Assembly: GCF_027214025.1 (NCBI RefSeq)
Contig: NZ_JAPWHB010000002.1
Coordinates: 496,001-560,000, forward strand
Direction: 5' to 3'
Source of the DNA: Parahoeflea alexandrii
GTDB taxonomy: Bacteria > Pseudomonadota > Alphaproteobacteria > Rhizobiales > Rhizobiaceae
Length of the DNA stretch: 64,000 nt
Shown one piece after another: positions 49,252-57,809 of this stretch (the first letter of the stretch is position 1; each line of letters opens with the position of its first letter). The translations under genes were made by a program, and so were the position numbers. The notes under the pieces were generated by a model. The model worked only from the letters and a program-made list of their open reading frames with translations. It was not told where the DNA came from and made no database searches.

Positions 49252-50388
49252 CTAGTCGAGCGTGCGGCGGAAGCGCATCAGCGCCAGCAGCATGTAGACC
49301 GCGACGAAGACCAAGAGCGCGGCAAGCGGCGTCGCCACCCCCTGCAGATCGGCGCCCTTGAGCATGACCGCGCGGATGATCCTCAGGAAATGCGTCAGCG
49401 GGAAGATCTCGCCAAGCGTCTGCGCCCAGCCCGGCATGCCGCGAAACGGGAACATGAACCCAGACAGCAGCAGCGACGGCAGGAAGAAGAAGAAGGTGAG
49501 CTGCATCGCCTGCATCTGGGTCCGCGCCAGCGTGGAGAATGCGTAGCCCAGGAGCACCAGCGCCAGCACGAAGATCAGGATGCTGATCAGGAGCAGCCAG
49601 AGCGAGCCGACAAACGGCACGCCGAACAGCGATTTGGCCGCCACCAGCACCACCACCACCTGCACCCCGCCGACCACCAGGAACGGCAGCACCTTGCCGA
49701 GCATGATCTCCAGCGGGCTCGCCGGCATGGCGAGCAGGTTCTCCATTGTGCCGCGCTCGGTCTCCCGCGTCAGCGCCATCGAGGTCATCATCACCATGGT
49801 CAGCTGCAGGATCACCCCAAGCAGGCCCGGGACGATGTTATACTGGGTGATGCCTTCCGGATTGTAGAGCTGGTGAACCACCACTTCGAGCGCTGCCGTC
49901 GATTGCCGGGCGGCCAGCGCCTCGGCCGATTGCTCGCGCAACAGCGCCTGCGCCGCAACGGTCCCGAGCGTCGAAATCGCGCCGGAGGCCACAGACGGAT
50001 CGGTCGCATCGGCCTCGATCAGGATCTGCGGATGATCGCCGCGCTCCACCCGCCGGGCAAAATCCGACGGCACAGTAACGACAAAGGAAACCACACCCGA
50101 CTGGATCAGCCGGTCGGCCTCCTCGGCGCTCGCCACCACATGATCGAACCGGTAGTAGCCGGTGTTCTCCATCGCCGAAACCATGGCGCGGGTGTAATGG
50201 TCCTGGCTGGTGGTCACCAGCGCCGCCGGCAGGCCCTTCGGATCATTGTTGATGGCGAAGCCGAACAGCACCAGCTGCATCAGCGGCACCCCCAGCATCA
50301 TCGCGAAGGTGATCCGGTCGCGTCGCATCTGGATGCTTTCCTTGGCAATGATCGCCATCAGCCTGCGAAACGAGAAGATGGAGCTCAT
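49252..50388 (-). CDS. ABC-2-type efflux permease (YbhS/YbhR-like)
   Basis: A 378-residue membrane permease of the ABC-2 family with one N-terminal helix, a large extracytoplasmic domain (about 50-180) and five C-terminal helices; the segment RETERGTMENLLAMPASPLEIMLGK (about 209-233) is the family signature. It overlaps the ATPase gene by four bases. Only one permease gene is present, whereas E. coli has ybhS and ybhR, so the transporter is probably a homodimer. Drug or lipophilic-compound export is likely. Confidence 0.88.
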   Translation of the reverse strand: MSSIFSFRRLMAIIAKESIQMRRDRITFAMMLGVPLMQLVLFGFAINNDPKGLPAALVTTSQDHYTRAMVSAMENTGYYRFDHVVASAEEADRLIQSGVVSFVVTVPSDFARRVERGDHPQILIEADATDPSVASGAISTLGTVAAQALLREQSAEALAARQSTAALEVVVHQLYNPEGITQYNIVPGLLGVILQLTMVMMTSMALTRETERGTMENLLAMPASPLEIMLGKVLPFLVVGGVQVVVVLVAAKSLFGVPFVGSLWLLLISILIFVLALVLLGYAFSTLARTQMQAMQLTFFFFLPSLLLSGFMFPFRGMPGWAQTLGEIFPLTHFLRIIRAVMLKGADLQGVATPLAALLVFVAVYMLLALMRFRRTLD

Positions 50389-51302
50389 GACATGTTGTCC
50401 GTCGATTTGCCCATGAACTGGATGAACACATCCTCCAGGCTGGTGGCGCCCTCGCGGTAGGCCACCCCGGTTGTTTCGGCCACCTTTGCGATCGCCGCCG
50501 CGAGGGTCGCCCTGTCCTGTCCCACCACGTGCAGCGTCAGCCCGAACGGCGCCACCTGGTCGACGCCCTCCATGCCCTGCAGCATCCTGGCTGCCTCTGT
50601 GATCCGGCCGCCCTCGAGCACGAAGGTGGTGAGCGCCGCATCGCGGATCACCTCCGGCACCGTGCCGCTGGCCAGCAGTTTGCCATAGGAGATGTAATGG
50701 ATCCGGTGGCAGCGTTCCGCCTCGTCCATGTAGTGCGTCGACACCAGAACGGTCAGCCCGGCGCTGGCGCGCATATGGATCTCGTCCCAGAACTCGCGCC
50801 GCGCCTTCGGGTCGACCCCGGCCGTCGGCTCGTCGAGCAGCAGCAGCTTCGGCTTGTGCATGATGCAGGCGGCCAGCGCCAGCCGCTGCTTCCAGCCGCC
50901 CGAAAGCGTTCCGGCCAGTTGCCTGCGCCGCGAAAACAGCCCGAGATCCTCCAGCGTGTCGCGCACCACGGCGGAGACCGGATCGAGATCGTAGAGCCGG
51001 GCGACGAAGGTGAGGTTTTCCTCGATCGACAGGTCTTCGTAAAACGAGAACCTCTGTGTCATGTAGCCGACTTCCCGCTTGATCCGCTGCCCGTCGGTGC
51101 GGATGTCATGGCCGAGCACCCGCCCTTCGCCCTCGTCGGGTGTCAAAAGCCCGCACATGACGCGGATTGTCGTGGTCTTGCCCGATCCGTTCGGCCCCAG
51201 GAAACCCGCGATCTCGCCCTCGGCCACCGACATCGAGACGTGATCGACGACGGTCTTGTCGCCGAAGCGCTTGACCAGCCCGTGAACCTCGATGGCGTTC
51301 AC
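50385..51302 (-). CDS. ABC efflux ATP-binding protein (YbhF-like, single domain)
   Basis: A 305-residue ATPase with Walker A GPNGSGKTT (about 35-43), signature TLSGGWKQRLALA, Walker B LLLLDEPTAGVDP and switch VSTHYMDE. E. coli YbhF carries two such domains in tandem; here there is one. The start is the GTG at 51302, which overlaps the end of the membrane-fusion gene by four bases; a longer frame upstream lies within that gene. It energises the permease encoded downstream. Confidence 0.9.
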   Translation of the reverse strand: MNAIEVHGLVKRFGDKTVVDHVSMSVAEGEIAGFLGPNGSGKTTTIRVMCGLLTPDEGEGRVLGHDIRTDGQRIKREVGYMTQRFSFYEDLSIEENLTFVARLYDLDPVSAVVRDTLEDLGLFSRRRQLAGTLSGGWKQRLALAACIMHKPKLLLLDEPTAGVDPKARREFWDEIHMRASAGLTVLVSTHYMDEAERCHRIHYISYGKLLASGTVPEVIRDAALTTFVLEGGRITEAARMLQGMEGVDQVAPFGLTLHVVGQDRATLAAAIAKVAETTGVAYREGATSLEDVFIQFMGKSTDNMS

Positions 51303-52258
51303 TGTCCGCTCCCCGCAAGGTCGACATCGACGATCTGTCCCGGCGTCAGCGCCCAGGCATCGCTGTCGGGCCGCGCTTCGACCAGGTAGACCAGCTTCTG
51401 GCGGTTCTCGAGCGAATAGATCACCGGCGGGGTGAACTCCGGATCGGGCGAGATGTAGCTGACGGTCGCCCGCATCCCCTCGCCGCAGCCATCGCATCGC
51501 ACCACAAGGCTCGCGCCCACCCGGATCGAGGAAAGCGCCGTCTCCGGCACGTAGACCCTGAGCTTGAGCGCGCCGTCGGGCAGCACCGAGAGCACCGGCG
51601 CCTGCGGACCGGCCACTTCGCCGGCGTTACGGATGATGTCGGAGACCACACCTGGCTGCGGGATCGACAGCACCCGCTTGGAAAGCCGCCACTCGGCGGA
51701 TTCGAGGACCGCGCCGGCCTGGTCGACCGCGGCCTGCGCCGCCTTGATCTCGTTTTCGCGCGCCGGAAGCCTGGCGACCGCCAGGTTGGCTTCGAGCTCG
51801 GCCACCTTGGCGCGGTTGAGTTCGACCGCGGTGGAGGCGGAATCATAGGCAGCCTGGGTGGAAATCCCCTGCGCCAGCAGATCCGACTGGCGCTGCAGCA
51901 CCCGCTCTGCTTCGGCTTCCTGTGCCTTGGCCGAACTCAGCGAAGCCTCGATACTGGCGATCTCTTCGGGACGCCGCCCCTCCTGCAGGTTGGCCAGTTG
52001 CCTCTCCGCCAGCGCCAGCCCGCCCGCGGCCTGGGCAACGGCGATTTCGGCGTCGCGCCGCTCGAGCCTGGCCAGGGGCTCGCCCGCCGTGACCCTGTCG
52101 CCGCGCCGGACCGCAAGGTCGACAACCTGCGCGGTCTCGATGGGGGCGACAAGCACATATTCGCCCTCGACGTAGCCGACAGCCAGCGGACCGGCGCCGG
52201 TGCAGGCCCAGATCAGGCTGGCAATGACGGGTACGGCGCAAATGAAGGACATCATCAT
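51299..52258 (-). CDS. HlyD-family membrane fusion protein (YbhG-like)
   Basis: A 319-residue periplasmic adaptor with an N-terminal membrane anchor or signal (about 1-22), a lipoyl/biotinyl half-motif (VVDLAVRRGDRVTAGEPLARLE, about 45-66), a long helical hairpin (about 70-190, rich in Ala, Glu and Gln) and a beta-barrel domain. It links the inner-membrane transporter to the outer membrane or periplasm. It overlaps the TetR-family gene and the ATPase gene by four bases each. Confidence 0.9.
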   Translation of the reverse strand: MMMSFICAVPVIASLIWACTGAGPLAVGYVEGEYVLVAPIETAQVVDLAVRRGDRVTAGEPLARLERRDAEIAVAQAAGGLALAERQLANLQEGRRPEEIASIEASLSSAKAQEAEAERVLQRQSDLLAQGISTQAAYDSASTAVELNRAKVAELEANLAVARLPARENEIKAAQAAVDQAGAVLESAEWRLSKRVLSIPQPGVVSDIIRNAGEVAGPQAPVLSVLPDGALKLRVYVPETALSSIRVGASLVVRCDGCGEGMRATVSYISPDPEFTPPVIYSLENRQKLVYLVEARPDSDAWALTPGQIVDVDLAGSGQ

Positions 52259-52941
52259 TCCTGTTTTCTGTTGGTTTCGACAAATGCACGGATATTGGCC
52301 AGGATCACCGCCTTGATGGCGCCGACCTCCTCCGGACCGACGGTTTTCCAGTCCATCCGCCGGGCGACGATGGCATGCCCGATGCGGAAATAGACGACCT
52401 GACCCGCAATGCTGAAGGTGCCAATGCGGATCAGGTCACTTTCCGGATCCTGGCCGGTGGCCAGCCCCAGAAGCACGCATAGACTGCGATGCACCGGCAG
52501 GATGAAATCGGTATAGACCCTGTCGAAGACCGCGCCGGCGGCACCCAGTTCACGCACCATGAACCCGGCGATGTCGCGGGCCTCGACCTGTCCGAGCATG
52601 AAATCGGTCACCCCCATGATGACGCGCTCGAAGGCTTCCTGCGCTTTTCCCGGATCCCCTTTCGGATCGATCGCGCCGAGCGCCGGACCGACGACAGACT
52701 GGATCCGGCTGCCCACCATTTCCGCGCACGCCAGCCGCAAGCCCTCCTTGCCGCCGAAATGGTAGGCGATGGAAGCGATATTGGCGTCCGCCGCAGCCGC
52801 GATCTCCCGCGTCGAGGTGGCTTCGAACCCTTTCGTCCCGAACAGCCGGACACCGGCCATCAGCAGCGCGGCACGCGTCTGGTCTCCGGCTTTCGCGGCG
52901 TTGGGCGAGGGTTTGGCGGCTTGGGACACGGCGTTTTCCAC
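52255..52941 (-). CDS. TetR-family regulator, CecR-like
   Basis: A 228-residue repressor, first gene of the efflux operon. The N-terminal helix-turn-helix is STREIAAAADANIASIAYHFGGKEGL (about 42-67); the C-terminal domain is of the CecR/DUF1956 type. In E. coli CecR controls ybhGFSR and responds to certain antibiotics. Here the regulator heads the same kind of operon, with four-base overlap to the adaptor gene, so it should repress its own transcript through the palindrome at 52977-53000. Confidence 0.9.
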   Translation of the reverse strand: MENAVSQAAKPSPNAAKAGDQTRAALLMAGVRLFGTKGFEATSTREIAAAADANIASIAYHFGGKEGLRLACAEMVGSRIQSVVGPALGAIDPKGDPGKAQEAFERVIMGVTDFMLGQVEARDIAGFMVRELGAAGAVFDRVYTDFILPVHRSLCVLLGLATGQDPESDLIRIGTFSIAGQVVYFRIGHAIVARRMDWKTVGPEEVGAIKAVILANIRAFVETNRKQE

Positions 52942-53086: not shown

Positions 53087-53851
53087 CTACGGCCGGATTT
53101 TCCGCATCATCAGCCAGCTGTAGAGGCGCGGCGAAAGCCGGTTGATGCGCCAGCTCAGGCTTGCCACCCGGCCGACGGGAATGAAGCTCCGTCCCAGCCG
53201 CCAGCCATCGAGGATGATCCGGGCGGCCTGGTCCGGGCTCATCTCGTCGAAGCCGTCCGTTGCCGCCCCCGGCCTGCCGATGCCGTCCGCCGAGGCATCG
53301 AGCCGCCCGGGATTGGTGGCAACGAAGGAAGGCGCCGCGATCACCACCCTGACCCCGTATTGCGCCTCTTCCGAGGTAAGCGACGAGAAGAAGCCGTTGA
53401 GCGCATGCTTGCTCGCCGCGTAGGCGGTCCGCTTGTAAAGCGGCGCGAAGCCCGCCACCGAGGAGACCGCCAGATGCGTTCCCCGTCCCGCCCGCACCGC
53501 CTTGAGCAGGCCTGCCGCCACCCGCACCGAGCCGAAATAGTTGATCTCCATCACCAGCTTTTGCGAGGCGAGCGTGGTTTCGTCAAACAGCCCGATCTGC
53601 GTGACGCCGGCATTGTGGATGACGAGATCGATCGCCGGATGCCGCTCAGAGATCGCGGCGCAGATCGAAGCCAGCGCGGCTTCGTCGGTCAGGTCGCAGG
53701 CAACCTGCTCGACCCGGTCGTTTGCAGCCAGCGCCGCAAGGCCGCGAGGCAGATCGATCAGCACTACGCGCCAGCCTTCCTCGAGAAGCTGGCGCATGAA
53801 CGCCTGCCCCAGCCCGCCGGCGCCGCCGGTAATCACAGCGACGCGGCTCAC
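53087..53851 (-). CDS. Short-chain dehydrogenase/reductase
   Basis: A 254-residue classical SDR. The cofactor motif is TGGAGGLGQAF (about 8-18), NAG is in IHNAGVTQIG, and the catalytic residues are in SSVAGFAPLYKRTAYAASKHAL (Ser, Tyr and Lys near 135-155). The GTG at 53851 overlaps the upstream epimerase stop by four bases. As the last gene of the FMO-BASS-epimerase-SDR operon it probably oxidises or reduces a hydroxyl or keto group on the same substrate. The substrate is unknown. Confidence 0.88.
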   Translation of the reverse strand: MSRVAVITGGAGGLGQAFMRQLLEEGWRVVLIDLPRGLAALAANDRVEQVACDLTDEAALASICAAISERHPAIDLVIHNAGVTQIGLFDETTLASQKLVMEINYFGSVRVAAGLLKAVRAGRGTHLAVSSVAGFAPLYKRTAYAASKHALNGFFSSLTSEEAQYGVRVVIAAPSFVATNPGRLDASADGIGRPGAATDGFDEMSPDQAARIILDGWRLGRSFIPVGRVASLSWRINRLSPRLYSWLMMRKIRP

Positions 53852-54786
53852 AGTCCCGCCGCCTTGCGCCACAGATCGAACGTCTCGGCGCTGGTGAGTT
53901 CAGGCGTATAGCCGAACACGGTTTTCAGCGCCGTGTTGTCGAGCACCGGGCGGTATTGCAGGAACCGGACCTGCTCCGGCCCGTAGCGCGACAGGCCCAG
54001 CGGCCGCGCGATGCCGAGCGCCGCCTTCAGCACCCAGGCAGGCAGCGCCATCACCGGTTTGCCGAGCGCTTTTGCAAGATCGTGAACCGACAGCGCCCCG
54101 TCCCCGCAGACATTGAAGATCCCCGCCGGCCCCTCGCCCGCCGCACGCATCAGGATCCTGGCCAGATCGCGGGTCCAGATGAACACGAACGGGCTGTCCG
54201 ATCCCTTGACCGCGATCAGCTTCGGCCGGTGAAACAGCTCGGTGATCTGGTTTTCAAGCCCGGCTCCCAGCACCGTGCCGACCCTGAGCACAACCTGCTC
54301 GAGACCGGGATGCGAGGCGCGCGCCTCGGCCAGCATTTCCTCGACCTGCCGCTTGTGGTCCGAATAGGGAAACTCGGGGTTGCCCCGCACCGGATCGCTT
54401 TCGCGGAGCGGCACCGGATTGTCCGCGTGATAGCCGTAGGCCGCCCCCGACGAGGTCACCACCAGGCGCTTCACACCGTGGTTGATGGCGGCATCGAGCA
54501 CGTTGCGCGTACCCTTCACATCGACATCATGGGCGAACTCCCGGGTCATGCCGCGCGACGGCGAAACGATCGAGGCCAGATGCACGATCACGTCCGGCTT
54601 GAAGCCGCTGATGACGCGCTTTGCGTCATTGCCGCGCACATCGAGCTTCATGAACCCGACACCGTCGGGCATATCCTCATGCCTGCGAATGTCGGTTGCA
54701 AGCGTCTCCACCCCGGCCGCCGCCAGTTCGCTGACCAGCACCTGGCCTACGGCTCCGGCAGCGCCAGTCACCAGCACACGGCTCAT
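53848..54786 (-). CDS. NAD-dependent epimerase/dehydratase
   Basis: A 312-residue extended SDR. The cofactor site is VTGAAGAVGQVLV (about 6-18), and the catalytic pair is in SSGAAYGYHADN and YSDHKRQVEEML (Tyr-x3-Lys modified as YSDHK). It resembles NAD(P)-dependent 3-beta-hydroxysteroid dehydrogenase or aldehyde-reductase-like proteins more than nucleotide-sugar epimerases, but this is a weak inference. It overlaps genes on both sides by four bases. Confidence 0.85.
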   Translation of the reverse strand: MSRVLVTGAAGAVGQVLVSELAAAGVETLATDIRRHEDMPDGVGFMKLDVRGNDAKRVISGFKPDVIVHLASIVSPSRGMTREFAHDVDVKGTRNVLDAAINHGVKRLVVTSSGAAYGYHADNPVPLRESDPVRGNPEFPYSDHKRQVEEMLAEARASHPGLEQVVLRVGTVLGAGLENQITELFHRPKLIAVKGSDSPFVFIWTRDLARILMRAAGEGPAGIFNVCGDGALSVHDLAKALGKPVMALPAWVLKAALGIARPLGLSRYGPEQVRFLQYRPVLDNTALKTVFGYTPELTSAETFDLWRKAAGL

Positions 54787-55685
54787 CGGCGCGCCTCCCG
54801 GCGCGACCAGACTGCCGCCAGCGCCAACCCGGAAATGGCATGCCAGATGCCCCAGAATGCTGCCGCCACGGCCATGCCGCCAAGCCCGCCGAAGAAGGCG
54901 AAGATCAACACCAGGCCGAGGCCCGAATTCTGGATGCCGGTTTCGATGGTGATCGCCCGGCGGTCATAATCGGACAATCGCATCACACTCGCCGACAGGT
55001 AGCCGCCGGCAAGCGCCAGCGAATTGTGCAGGATCACCAGCCCCGCGACCGCGCCGGCATAGGACAGGAAGAAACTCCAGTTCGCCGCCAGCGCCAGCAC
55101 GATGAAGCCGATGAAGATCGCCATCGAGATCCGCTGCATCGTCTTGCGGATCCGCGCGGCGAAATCCGGCCGCCGGACATTGACCAGGATCCCGAGCATC
55201 AGCGGCAGGATCAGCATGAAGAACACGGTGATCGCGATCGACACCGGATCGAGCGTCGTCTGCCGCAGGATCGCCCGGGTCGGCTCGTAGAGATTGCCCC
55301 AGAACGCGACGTTGAATGGAGTCATCACGATCGCCGCAACCGTGGCAATCCCGGTCATCGACACCGACAGCGCCGAGTTTCCGCCCGCGCGGTGAGTGAT
55401 GAAGTTGGAAATGTTACCGCCCGGACAGGCCGCCACCAGGATCAGCCCCAGCGCGATCGACGGCTTCGGGTTGGTGACCAGCAGCATCCCGAATGTCAGT
55501 GCCGGCAGCACCAGGAATTGCGACACCATGCCGGTCAGCAGGGCCTTCGGCATCCGTACCAGCGCCCGGAAATCCGATGGTTTCAGGTCGAGCGCGATCG
55601 AGAACATGACGATCGCCAGGATGGCATTGAGCAGCATCAGGCTTTCGGGGCTGAAATTCAGCCTTATGGAGTCGATATCGGTCAC
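54783..55685 (-). CDS. Bile acid:sodium symporter (BASS) family transporter
   Basis: A 300-residue membrane protein with about nine or ten hydrophobic helices. Family signs include VLPALTFGMLLV, AACPGGNISNFITHRAGGNSALSVSMT (about 85-111; the crossover region that binds sodium) and ETGIQNSGLGLVLIF (about 246-260; the second sodium site). The family imports organic anions such as bile acids, pantoate or 2-oxo acids by sodium symport. It is coupled by four-base overlaps to the monooxygenase upstream and the epimerase downstream, so its cargo is likely their substrate. Confidence 0.88.
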   Translation of the reverse strand: MTDIDSIRLNFSPESLMLLNAILAIVMFSIALDLKPSDFRALVRMPKALLTGMVSQFLVLPALTFGMLLVTNPKPSIALGLILVAACPGGNISNFITHRAGGNSALSVSMTGIATVAAIVMTPFNVAFWGNLYEPTRAILRQTTLDPVSIAITVFFMLILPLMLGILVNVRRPDFAARIRKTMQRISMAIFIGFIVLALAANWSFFLSYAGAVAGLVILHNSLALAGGYLSASVMRLSDYDRRAITIETGIQNSGLGLVLIFAFFGGLGGMAVAAAFWGIWHAISGLALAAVWSRREARR

Positions 55686-57043
55686 TTGCCATCACCTTTC
55701 AGGGCTGCAATCCAGCTTGTCACAGCATTGCGGTAGGTGGCCTTGTCGACATAATAGGCCATCCGAGGCAGGTCGATATAGTTCATGCCGCCGGTGGCGC
55801 GCTTGAATCCCGCCGCCTTTTCCTCGCGCAGCGCCTTGGCCGCCATCTTGCCGTTCTTCAGCCCGGCAATGTAGCGCGCCACCATCTCGGCCTGCTCGTG
55901 CCGTCCCTGCCAGCCGAGCCCGGAAGCCTCCACCATCCCAAGCACGAACAGGTCGTCACGCTCGGGGTGCAGGCAGTTGAGGAACAGGTGCGGCGCATCG
56001 CCCTGCCAGCTCAGAAGCGCCTTGTCGATGAACGGATAATGCAGCTTGTAGCCGGTGGCCGCCAGGATCAGATCGTAGTCGGCCTGCGTCCCGTCCTTGA
56101 AATGAACCGTGTTGCCCTCGAACCGGTCGATATCCGGCCGCACCGTGATATCGCCATGCCCGGCATGAAACAGGATCAGCGAATTGACCACCGGATGGGA
56201 TTCGTAAAGCGCGTAGTCCGGCTTCGGAAACCCGTATTTGGACGGGTCTCCGACAAACCATTTCAGGATCATGCCGTCGACCCGGCGCTTGAGCCACATC
56301 GGCAGCTTGATCTTGCCCCCCATCGTGTCGGCGGGCCGGCCGAACACGTATTTCGGCACGAAGTAGTAGCCGCGCCGCATCGAGATATCGCAAGCCTTGC
56401 CGTGATGTATGGCATCGACCGCAATGTCGCAGCCCGAATTGCCAGCGCCGATGATCAGCACCCGCTTGCCCTTGAACACCTCCGGGTCGCGGTAGGCGCT
56501 CGAATGCATCAGTTCGCCGGAAAAATGTCCCTTGAATTCGGGCATGTTCGGCTCCGACAGGGTGCCGTTGGCGATCAGCACCCCGGCAAACTGCGCCGCG
56601 TGCTCGGTGCCGTCGGCTTCACGCCAGGTCACCCGCCAGCCCTCGCCGGACTTGCCGAGCGGTTCCGCCGACAGCACTTCCGCGCCGAATCGATAGTGAT
56701 CGTAGATCCCGAAATGTTTGGCGAACCGGCGGAAATAGTCCTTGAGCTCGCGGTGCGACGGGTACTCCGCCACCGTGGTATCCATCGGGAAATCCGTGAA
56801 CTCGGTCATCGTCTTCGACGAGATCAGGTGCGCTGTCTCGTACATGGTCGATTTCGGCCCGTCGATGTCCCACAGCCCGCCGACATCGGAATGCAGCTCG
56901 AAACCCCGGAACGGGATCCCCTGTTCGATCAGCGTCTTGGCCATCGCCAGCCCCATCGGGCCCGCGCCGATCAAGGCATAATGGTTGCGTAAATCTTCCG
57001 CGCCAGCCGCATCCTGCGCAGCCGTTTCAACTCTCTTGTCCAA
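55682..57043 (-). CDS. Flavin-containing monooxygenase
   Basis: A 453-residue class B flavoprotein monooxygenase. It has the FAD motif LIGAGPMGLAMAKT (about 26-39), the FMO fingerprint FSGELMHSSAYRD (F-x-G-x3-H-x3-Y type, about 172-184), the NADPH motif LIIGAGNSGCDIA (about 194-206), and the C-terminal ATGYK. It should insert oxygen into a nitrogen, sulfur or ketone carbon centre using NADPH and O2. It is the first gene of a four-gene operon, 45 bases from a perfect palindrome and divergent from a TetR-family gene. Confidence 0.9.
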   Translation of the reverse strand: MDKRVETAAQDAAGAEDLRNHYALIGAGPMGLAMAKTLIEQGIPFRGFELHSDVGGLWDIDGPKSTMYETAHLISSKTMTEFTDFPMDTTVAEYPSHRELKDYFRRFAKHFGIYDHYRFGAEVLSAEPLGKSGEGWRVTWREADGTEHAAQFAGVLIANGTLSEPNMPEFKGHFSGELMHSSAYRDPEVFKGKRVLIIGAGNSGCDIAVDAIHHGKACDISMRRGYYFVPKYVFGRPADTMGGKIKLPMWLKRRVDGMILKWFVGDPSKYGFPKPDYALYESHPVVNSLILFHAGHGDITVRPDIDRFEGNTVHFKDGTQADYDLILAATGYKLHYPFIDKALLSWQGDAPHLFLNCLHPERDDLFVLGMVEASGLGWQGRHEQAEMVARYIAGLKNGKMAAKALREEKAAGFKRATGGMNYIDLPRMAYYVDKATYRNAVTSWIAALKGDGK

Positions 57044-57088
57044 CTGTCCCCCTCCCTGGCTTCAGTGGATTTCTTCCTCGACTCATTA

Positions 57089-57104
57089 TTGAACGATCGT
57101 TCAA
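57089..57104. promoter_or_regulatory. 16-bp perfect palindrome between the FMO operon and its TetR-family gene
   Basis: TTGAACGATCGTTCAA is a perfect palindrome in a 79-base divergent gap, 18 bases before the regulator ATG and 45 before the monooxygenase ATG. This AACGATCGTT core is typical of TetR-type operators. One site could control both directions. Confidence 0.8.
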
Positions 57105-57122
57105 AACAAGGCAAGATGAATC

Positions 57123-57809
57123 ATGAGCCAAGAGTCACCAGCCGCCGCCCGAGCCGACCAGCCGCGCCGCCGCGCCGTATCCAAACGATCGCTGGCCACC
57201 AGCCTTGCCATCCTCGATGCAGCCGAACGGCTGTTTGCCGAGCGCGGCTATGACGGCGCCTCGGTGCGCGACATCGCCAGCGCCGCCGGCGCCCAGATCG
57301 CCTCCATCAGCTTTCACCATGTCGGCAAGGAAACCCTGTTCGAGCGGGTTGTCGAGCGGCGGGCCAAGGAACTGTCGCAATTGCGGCTAGATGCACTGTC
57401 AATGCTGAAAGCACATGACGCCAAGCCAACGCTCAAAGCGCTGCTCTCGGCTTTCCTGCGCCCCTATCTCGAAAAGGCCGGCGCCGGCGACCCGCAATGG
57501 CTCGCCTATGCGCGGCTTGTGGCGATGGTCTCTGCCGACATCCGCTGGCACCGGATCTCCGAGCGATGTTTCGACCCCACAGCCGGCGTCTTCATCGCCG
57601 AGATCGTAAAACTGTTTCCGCAGGCCGACCGGTCGGCCATCGCGGTGAGCTTCATCTTCTCGGTGTCGGCCATGCTGTCGCTGTCGACCTCGCAATGGCG
57701 CATCGAGGCGCTATCGGCGGCTGCCGGCAACCAGCCCGCCATGGACCGGCTCGCCGATCAGCTGGTCAGCTTCTGCGAGGCCGGCATGCGCGCGGCGCTT
57801 AAAGGCTGA
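57123..57809 (+). CDS. TetR/AcrR-family regulator of the FMO operon
   Basis: A 228-residue regulator. The helix-turn-helix lies at about 32-75 (LDAAERLFAERGYDGASVRDIASAAGAQIASISFHHVGKETL as described by its key residues F-A-E-R-G and I-A-x-x-A). The C-terminal domain is a ligand pocket of unknown specificity with a hydrophobic segment VSFIFSVSAMLSLS. It is divergent from the monooxygenase gene and probably represses it and itself from the palindrome at 57089-57104 until the operon substrate is present. Confidence 0.88.
   Translation: MSQESPAAARADQPRRRAVSKRSLATSLAILDAAERLFAERGYDGASVRDIASAAGAQIASISFHHVGKETLFERVVERRAKELSQLRLDALSMLKAHDAKPTLKALLSAFLRPYLEKAGAGDPQWLAYARLVAMVSADIRWHRISERCFDPTAGVFIAEIVKLFPQADRSAIAVSFIFSVSAMLSLSTSQWRIEALSAAAGNQPAMDRLADQLVSFCEAGMRAALKG

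Follow-up and report, generated by a model that had tools for sequence, protein, structure and literature searches.

A conserved arrangement of flavin monooxygenase, BASS-family transporter, two dehydrogenases and a divergent TetR-type regulator in Parahoeflea alexandrii

A compact group of genes in Parahoeflea alexandrii raises the question of what a flavin monooxygenase (FMO), a transporter of the BASS/SBF sodium symporter family and two short-chain dehydrogenases/reductases (SDRs) do together beside a divergent TetR-family regulator. The genes occupy positions 53087-57809 of a 64,000-nucleotide stretch of contig NZ_JAPWHB010000002.1 (496,001 to 560,000; hereafter the window), and a first-pass annotation made from the letters of the window had described them as an operon with its own TetR-type switch and as a plausible complete pathway for a lipophilic anion such as a steroid, terpenoid or bile-like acid. 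Our computational analysis indicates that the five genes are a conserved unit, and that they probably constitute a repressor-controlled catabolic or scavenging operon that imports and oxidizes a single organic anion of small to medium size.

The operon begins on the minus strand with the gene for a class B flavin monooxygenase of the FMO-like family PF00743 (55682-57043; TTG start; 181.9 bits), and continues with the BASS gene (54783-55685; GTG start; SBF domain, PF01758, 118.4 bits), the gene for an epimerase-like extended SDR of the NAD-dependent epimerase/dehydratase family (53848-54786; ATG start; Epimerase, 107.6 bits) and that for a classical SDR dehydrogenase (53087-53851; GTG start; adh_short, 136.4 bits). 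The TetR-family gene diverges from these on the plus strand (57123-57809; TetR_N 54.7 bits, TetR_C_30 96.4 bits), and the Pfam assignments of all five proteins were well over their cut-offs. At each of the three junctions the start codon of one gene overlaps the stop codon of the preceding one by exactly 4 bp, as the first-pass annotation had stated, the shared bases being GTGA between FMO and BASS, ATGA between BASS and the epimerase-like gene, and GTGA between the latter and the SDR. The open reading frame list starts the SDR at an upstream GTG (53872); we placed it at GTG 53851, the start that gives the 4-bp overlap, because such an overlap is also possible in 72 of 78 related loci. The start of the FMO is less certain, since there is little conservation over the first ~20 residues.

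If the five genes work together they might be expected to have stayed together. We confirmed 143 FMO relatives in the named genome collection and analyzed the best 80 of these, with FMO identities of 73-92%, from Hoeflea, Ruegeria, Phaeobacter, Thioclava, Sulfitobacter, Shimia, Sneathiella and others; a Ruegeria pomeroyi isolate (L055) is one of the carriers. The order FMO-BASS-epimerase-SDR was colinear in 78 of the 80 loci, the other two (L038 and L039) being interrupted by contig ends; a divergent TetR gene was present in 76, and the complete five-gene arrangement in 74, with contig ends accounting for two of the six exceptions. Starts permitting the 4-bp overlaps were available at the three junctions in 76, 72 and 72 of 78 loci. 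When neighbors up to 8 kb on each side were clustered using a codon-score gene caller, five families occurred at fixed places in 80, 78, 77, 75 and 69 of the 80 loci; the commonest sixth family was found in only 17, at 4.0-7.2 kb downstream from where the FMO starts, and the conserved unit is therefore five genes, with no further family to be counted as a sixth operon member.

Directly downstream of the operon, on the minus strand of the window (49252-52941), four genes with 4-bp overlaps make up an ABC efflux set (ABC-2 permease, ATPase, an HlyD-like protein and a CecR-type TetR regulator). These CecR-HlyD-ABC genes accompany the five in 6 of 80 loci only, and we rejected them as part of the module.

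The perfect 16-bp palindrome that the first-pass annotation had noted between the FMO and TetR genes, TTGAACGATCGTTCAA, is present at 57089-57104, and sequence search together with conservation in relatives marks it as a putative operator. By uniform-base arithmetic the chance of a perfect palindrome of this length in the 79-bp gap is ~0.001. It occupies most of the spacer of an FMO-facing, sigma-70-like promoter on the minus strand (TTGCCT-18-AATAAT, 57114-57085), whose -35-like hexamer TTGCCT (57109-57114) lies within the TTGCCTTA block conserved in relatives, and whose -10-like hexamer AATAAT (57085-57090), 18 nt further on, has 2 bp in common with the palindrome. At up to three mismatches TTGAACGATCGTTCAA was the sole match in the window, where shuffling gave a mean of 0.20 matches and at least one in 18 of 100 trials, and in the 5.54-Mb genome it occurred exactly once. 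One further genome site, with two mismatches, was within chance, uniform-base arithmetic giving an expectation of about 1.5; it fell outside any divergent-pair gap in a crude list of open reading frames, and we rejected it as a second operator.

We then counted mismatches to the palindrome in the 76 loci with a TetR match, and found 0 in 7, 1 in 16, 2 in 25, 3 in 21, 4 in 4 and 6 in 3, so that 73 of 76 had four or fewer; shuffled intergenic sequence gave ~7 on average and 3-5 at best. The GTTCAA part was exact in 71 of 76. Among the 73 loci the TTGCCTTA block, 2 bp upstream of the palindrome, showed column conservation of 62-73, with a looser pattern, AAT-n-TA, on the -10 side (43-73). The predicted operator site is thus conserved, with perfect symmetry the exception among relatives, and the TetR_N helix-turn-helix and a palindrome in the divergent promoter region fit the pattern of a local repressor, for which we predict binding at this site. 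Together with the conserved arrangement, the site supports the earlier description of the genes as a tight, operon-like group under a dedicated TetR-type switch. A Hoeflea locus (L035) kept a palindrome, upstream of 8001, with no TetR gene detectable in the stretch, possibly after loss or relocation of the repressor.

A lack of the gene set outside close relatives had been named beforehand as a refuting result, and the set proved to be conserved far beyond them. We also analyzed 15-kb stretches around eight FMO matches from outside the class. Here BASS accompanied the FMO in seven loci, an SDR (32-36% identity) in seven, and an epimerase-like gene in three (L176, L177 and L178), so that FMO, BASS and SDR were kept together in 7 of 8. 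The order differed among them: FMO-BASS-epimerase-SDR followed by a TauE/SafE gene in L178, FMO-BASS-SDR in L179-L182, and SDR-FMO-BASS-epimerase in L176 and L177. Regulators were scanned in L176, L178 and L179: L178 had a divergent AraC regulator with an Arabinose_bd domain, L179 a similar one, and L176 a LysR gene after the set.

More distant loci show further rearrangement. In four of them (L150, L155, L157 and L185) the order was BASS-epimerase-FMO, with BASS and epimerase at 45-51% identity; no TetR match was found in these stretches, no SDR match in L185, and no SDR match exceeding 27% identity in L150, L155 or L157. In six others (L113, L151, L152, L154, L156 and L184) a cousin FMO of 39-43% identity was paired with an SDR, mostly beside a gene judged TetR-like by annotation, weak match or eye, and beside an AraC gene in L184. 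Two of these FMOs are fused behind an AA_permease_2 domain, at L113:5519-8416 (Agrobacterium sp. T29 plasmid; 966 aa) and L154:5378-8206 (genome G416; 943 aa), and both fusion genes adjoin the SDR and TetR-like genes. Cousin FMOs in L158, L159 and L160 lacked such partners, and that of L159 (6398-7732; 41% identity) adjoins a 2085-aa reading frame resembling a polyketide synthase by eye. Because the linkage persists even where order, regulator and transporter have changed, it provides good evidence for cooperation between transporter and monooxygenase in this branch; judged from gene content, the recurring core is BASS, FMO and one or both dehydrogenases, with an apparently exchangeable regulator.

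Other Hoeflea genomes carry a second FMO (L116:5634-6959, 36%; L117:5437-6759, 30%) beside a gene resembling purL by eye, and no BASS or epimerase match was found in these 12-kb stretches.

The FMO is common in its own genus and scattered elsewhere. The window's genome clusters with Hoeflea, and among the 61 genomes closest to it an FMO of at least 79% identity over near-full length was present in 16 of 18 from the genus, a further one (G008) having a fragment at a contig end. Of the family's 19 remaining genomes, 2 had an FMO at 74-79%, and no such FMO was found in 24 genomes from other families of the order. In the class survey 7 of 385 genomes, our own included, had an FMO of at least 72%, and a different order, represented by 25 genomes from two genera, had it in 6 of 25; the phylum survey (398 genomes) yielded eight from outside the class at 56-62%. 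Plasmid records matching the FMO at E 1e-20 numbered 322, 206 of them from E. coli; all were below 60% identity, the top-ranked at 42.1%. On E. coli plasmids, p53_C (L187) among them, a gene for an FAD-dependent oxidoreductase (~29-31% identity to the FMO) shares a 4-bp overlap with a SemiSWEET transporter gene, and the cluster also has an aminotransferase and a Gfo/Idh/MocA enzyme. A quick FMO tree (34 of 98 inner branches open) nested Hoeflea between roseobacter sequences, a position of modest support that suggests lateral transfer.

Residues were compared in alignments picked for spread (A2 to A6, of 30, 30, 25, 20 and 19 sequences). L112 was excluded from these and from the tree, its matched stretch having extended past the 5' end of the gene and reached a stop codon, and L020 and L114 were also excluded from alignments A1 and A2. 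In the FMO the Rossmann motifs G26/G28/G31 and G199/G201/G204, for FAD and NAD(P), were invariant in 30 of 30 sequences, as were F174, G176, H180 and Y184 of the fingerprint F174-x-G176-x3-H180-x3-Y184. At the fingerprint position class B FMOs carry Tyr or Phe and type I Baeyer-Villiger monooxygenases Trp, and by its motifs and this fingerprint the protein has the marks of a class B FMO. Specific identities as Tmm (NF058570; 108.8 bits against a cut-off of 675) and ArsO (NF040505; 87 against 425) were rejected.

The nearest solved FMO is DiatB (PDB 8z12, 8z16 and 8z17; ~210 bits by sequence; fold E 7e-29, 31% identity), which we take to be a natural-product enzyme. In the alignment with DiatB, I74 of the window FMO stands opposite N57 and E372 opposite R360. 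Both DiatB residues were mutated, according to the entry titles (N57A in 8z16, R360A in 8z17), and I74 and E372 are shared by all 30 relatives aligned, so that the DiatB-type active-site Asn is absent here and its place held by I74. Among 23 distinct cousins (L141 and L161 carry the same gene and were counted once) this first place held Ile in 15, Asp in 6 and Asn in 2. Loss of the Asn is therefore common to the wider FMO branch and not peculiar to the operon, and since the Asn is not universal among cousins, fold and profile still assign the protein to the FMO family. The structural model of the FMO is merely moderate (pLDDT 73.5), and we therefore drew no argument from its pocket.

The transporter belongs to its family by a wide margin (118.4 bits against a cut-off of 24.3), and Q56, S93, N94, S107, T111, E248 and Q252, the presumed sodium sites after the ASBT_NM structure, were the same in all 25 sequences aligned. 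Its nearest solved relatives are 3zux (133.2 bits) and 3zuy (130 bits), both presumably ASBT_NM, as is 8oyf. It scored below the cut-off of the bass subfamily model TIGR00841 (185.9 against 326.3 bits), and below that for the pantoate transporter PanS (NF047939; 124.9 against 400), an identity we set aside.

Both dehydrogenases retain an intact YxxxK motif. In the epimerase-like protein Asp32, Tyr141 and Lys145 were present in 30 of 30 aligned sequences, and in the classical SDR Asp33, Ser131, Tyr144 and Lys148 in 20 of 20; enzymes whose second strand ends in an acidic residue usually prefer NAD. The model of the epimerase-like protein (pLDDT 91.7) found its closest folds among sugar-nucleotide reductases and epimerases. 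The protein fell under every NCBIfam cut-off listed, and despite the alike fold a GalE identity was rejected (TIGR01179; 65.3 bits against an equivalog cut-off of 262.3). It also matched 3Beta_HSD (63.6 bits against a cut-off of 22), below its Epimerase score.

From these features a course of events can be proposed for the import-oxidation operon. TetR bound to the palindrome inside the promoter would block transcription, as the position and conservation of the site suggest, until the anion or its metabolite freed the repressor, as is usual to suppose for this family. The four genes, to judge from their 4-bp overlaps, would then be expressed as one translationally coupled unit. With its conserved positions, BASS would bring the anion in with sodium, and the FMO, which has FAD and NAD(P) motifs, would use NADPH to insert one oxygen atom. 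The two SDRs, with their acidic and YxxxK residues, may carry out NAD-linked steps, and the product would pass into metabolism via genes elsewhere. The earlier logic of import followed by oxidation is supported by the seven invariant BASS positions and by the permease-FMO fusions of two loci.

Several observations weigh against this interpretation. No further enzyme is conserved with the set, so the whole pathway is not encoded here, and the 'complete pathway' of the first-pass annotation is unproven, five genes being all that is kept before conservation drops to 17 of 80 loci. Four of the 80 loci (L035, L084, L095 and L103) have no detectable TetR neighbor, and no perfect palindrome was seen in the last three of these; the exact 16-mer occurs in just 7 of 76 loci, so that perfect symmetry is not general, and in L056, L060 and L096 the six mismatches are at chance level, without a recognizable site. 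A single site came out of the promoter scan, against an average of 1.0 in shuffles, which makes the scan weak taken alone, conservation being the stronger evidence. No terminator-like site was found 3' of the SDR, the scan having returned two, both intragenic, against 4.8 in shuffles. Outside the class L183 has the FMO and no BASS (1 of 8), and within the genus G001 has an FMO relative of only 36%.

It was also reasonable to consider that the set might serve detoxification or the quenching of a signal, a toxic or signaling anion being imported and oxidized to disarm it with no benefit to growth. A small self-contained set with its own regulator and no conserved downstream catabolic gene would suit such a role, as would the patchy presence of the FMO (6 of 25 genomes in one other order, 2 of 19 in the rest of the family). 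An importer, however, is odd for this purpose, and the adjoining ABC efflux set is shared by so few loci (6 of 80) that efflux is not part of the module. We consider this explanation unlikely.

A sulfur-containing anion, oxidized or cleaved at sulfur by the FMO, would be a more specific proposal. FMOs commonly S-oxygenate, and a gene of the TauE/SafE (sulfite exporter) family adjoins the FMO-BASS-epimerase-SDR genes in L178 (4224-4958) and the FMO-SDR pair in L151 (6016-6750), with another nearby in L176 (11398-12183) and a gene similar-looking by eye in L152, which hints at a branch concerned with sulfonate or sulfite. On the other hand, TauE/SafE members also move other anions, and three TauE/SafE queries (E 1e-4) were without a match in the 80 main loci, which led us to reject the family as a general partner and leaves the sulfur proposal improbable. 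Slightly less probable again is a biosynthetic role, in which an endogenous metabolite would be tailored and then exported by BASS. The kinship of the FMO to DiatB and the polyketide synthase-like frame beside the L159 cousin point that way, but across the 80 loci the set has no large biosynthetic gene family as a recurrent neighbor, the sodium-site positions of BASS are invariant, and the acidic residues of both dehydrogenases suggest NAD, hence oxidation. The reading first proposed, in which the operon would break down a lipophilic steroid, terpenoid or bile-like acid, is very improbable, since nothing favors it beyond family names (BASS/SBF, and a 3Beta_HSD match above its cut-off), whereas BASS falls under both NCBIfam cut-offs, the epimerase-like model finds its best fold matches in sugar-nucleotide reductases and epimerases, and no CoA ligase, ring-cleavage or beta-oxidation family is conserved within 8 kb per side in the 80 loci, the rest of the genome not having been searched.

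Returning to the repressor-controlled import and oxidation of an organic anion, we can tentatively go further. It is possible, if rather doubtful, that the set represents an undescribed and probably laterally spread pathway of marine and other proteobacteria, in which the FMO forms a distinct I74/E372 subfamily with chemistry beyond ordinary N- or S-oxygenation, and two NAD-linked steps finish a short conversion. No published description of the gene set was found in the open-licence full-text literature, where subscription journals are mostly uncovered, and novelty is therefore provisional; the statement of the first-pass annotation that no characterized pathway has this composition agrees with that search, as weak negative evidence. 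Passages of a Roseobacter co-culture paper deal with unrelated genes (PMC4069834).

Conserved as a five-gene unit across many marine alphaproteobacteria, and as a core outside the class, the set probably acts on a compound encountered by many of these bacteria. The regulator offers a direct handle on what this is, in that whatever releases TetR from the palindrome would point to the substrate. The FMO subfamily may represent unexplored chemistry so far as the literature was searched, two residues mutated in DiatB being replaced and fixed here.

Each component has well-known counterparts. Tmm and bacterial FMO (2vq7, 7d4k and 5ipy) likewise have the class B FMO fold, the FAD and NAD(P) motifs and an FMO-type fingerprint; titles of bacterial FMO Asn78 mutant entries (2xlp, 2xlr and 2xls) mark an Asn in oxygen activation, to which DiatB N57, replaced by Ile in the window FMO, may correspond. 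ASBT_NM, which takes bile acids and pantoate, and PanS are of the same family as the window BASS, with the seven presumed sodium-site positions kept; unlike them, the window BASS is embedded in an oxidation operon. The best solved match of the regulator is NicR (5fgl/5fhp; 58.6 bits), and TetR_C_30 is common to it and PsrA/NicR-like regulators (PsrA model, 65.7 bits against a cut-off of 300); its single exact genome site fits a local regulator, unlike these. Operons of the VirS-MymA and AlmA types, going by their descriptions, also join an FMO and an SDR to a divergent regulator, with other partners and without BASS, and VirS presumably carries an Arabinose_bd domain, as do the AraC regulators of L178 and L179. 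Set beside these systems, the P. alexandrii genes are apparently an undescribed operon of a familiar general kind, comprising regulator, transporter and oxidoreductases, and not a new category of system.

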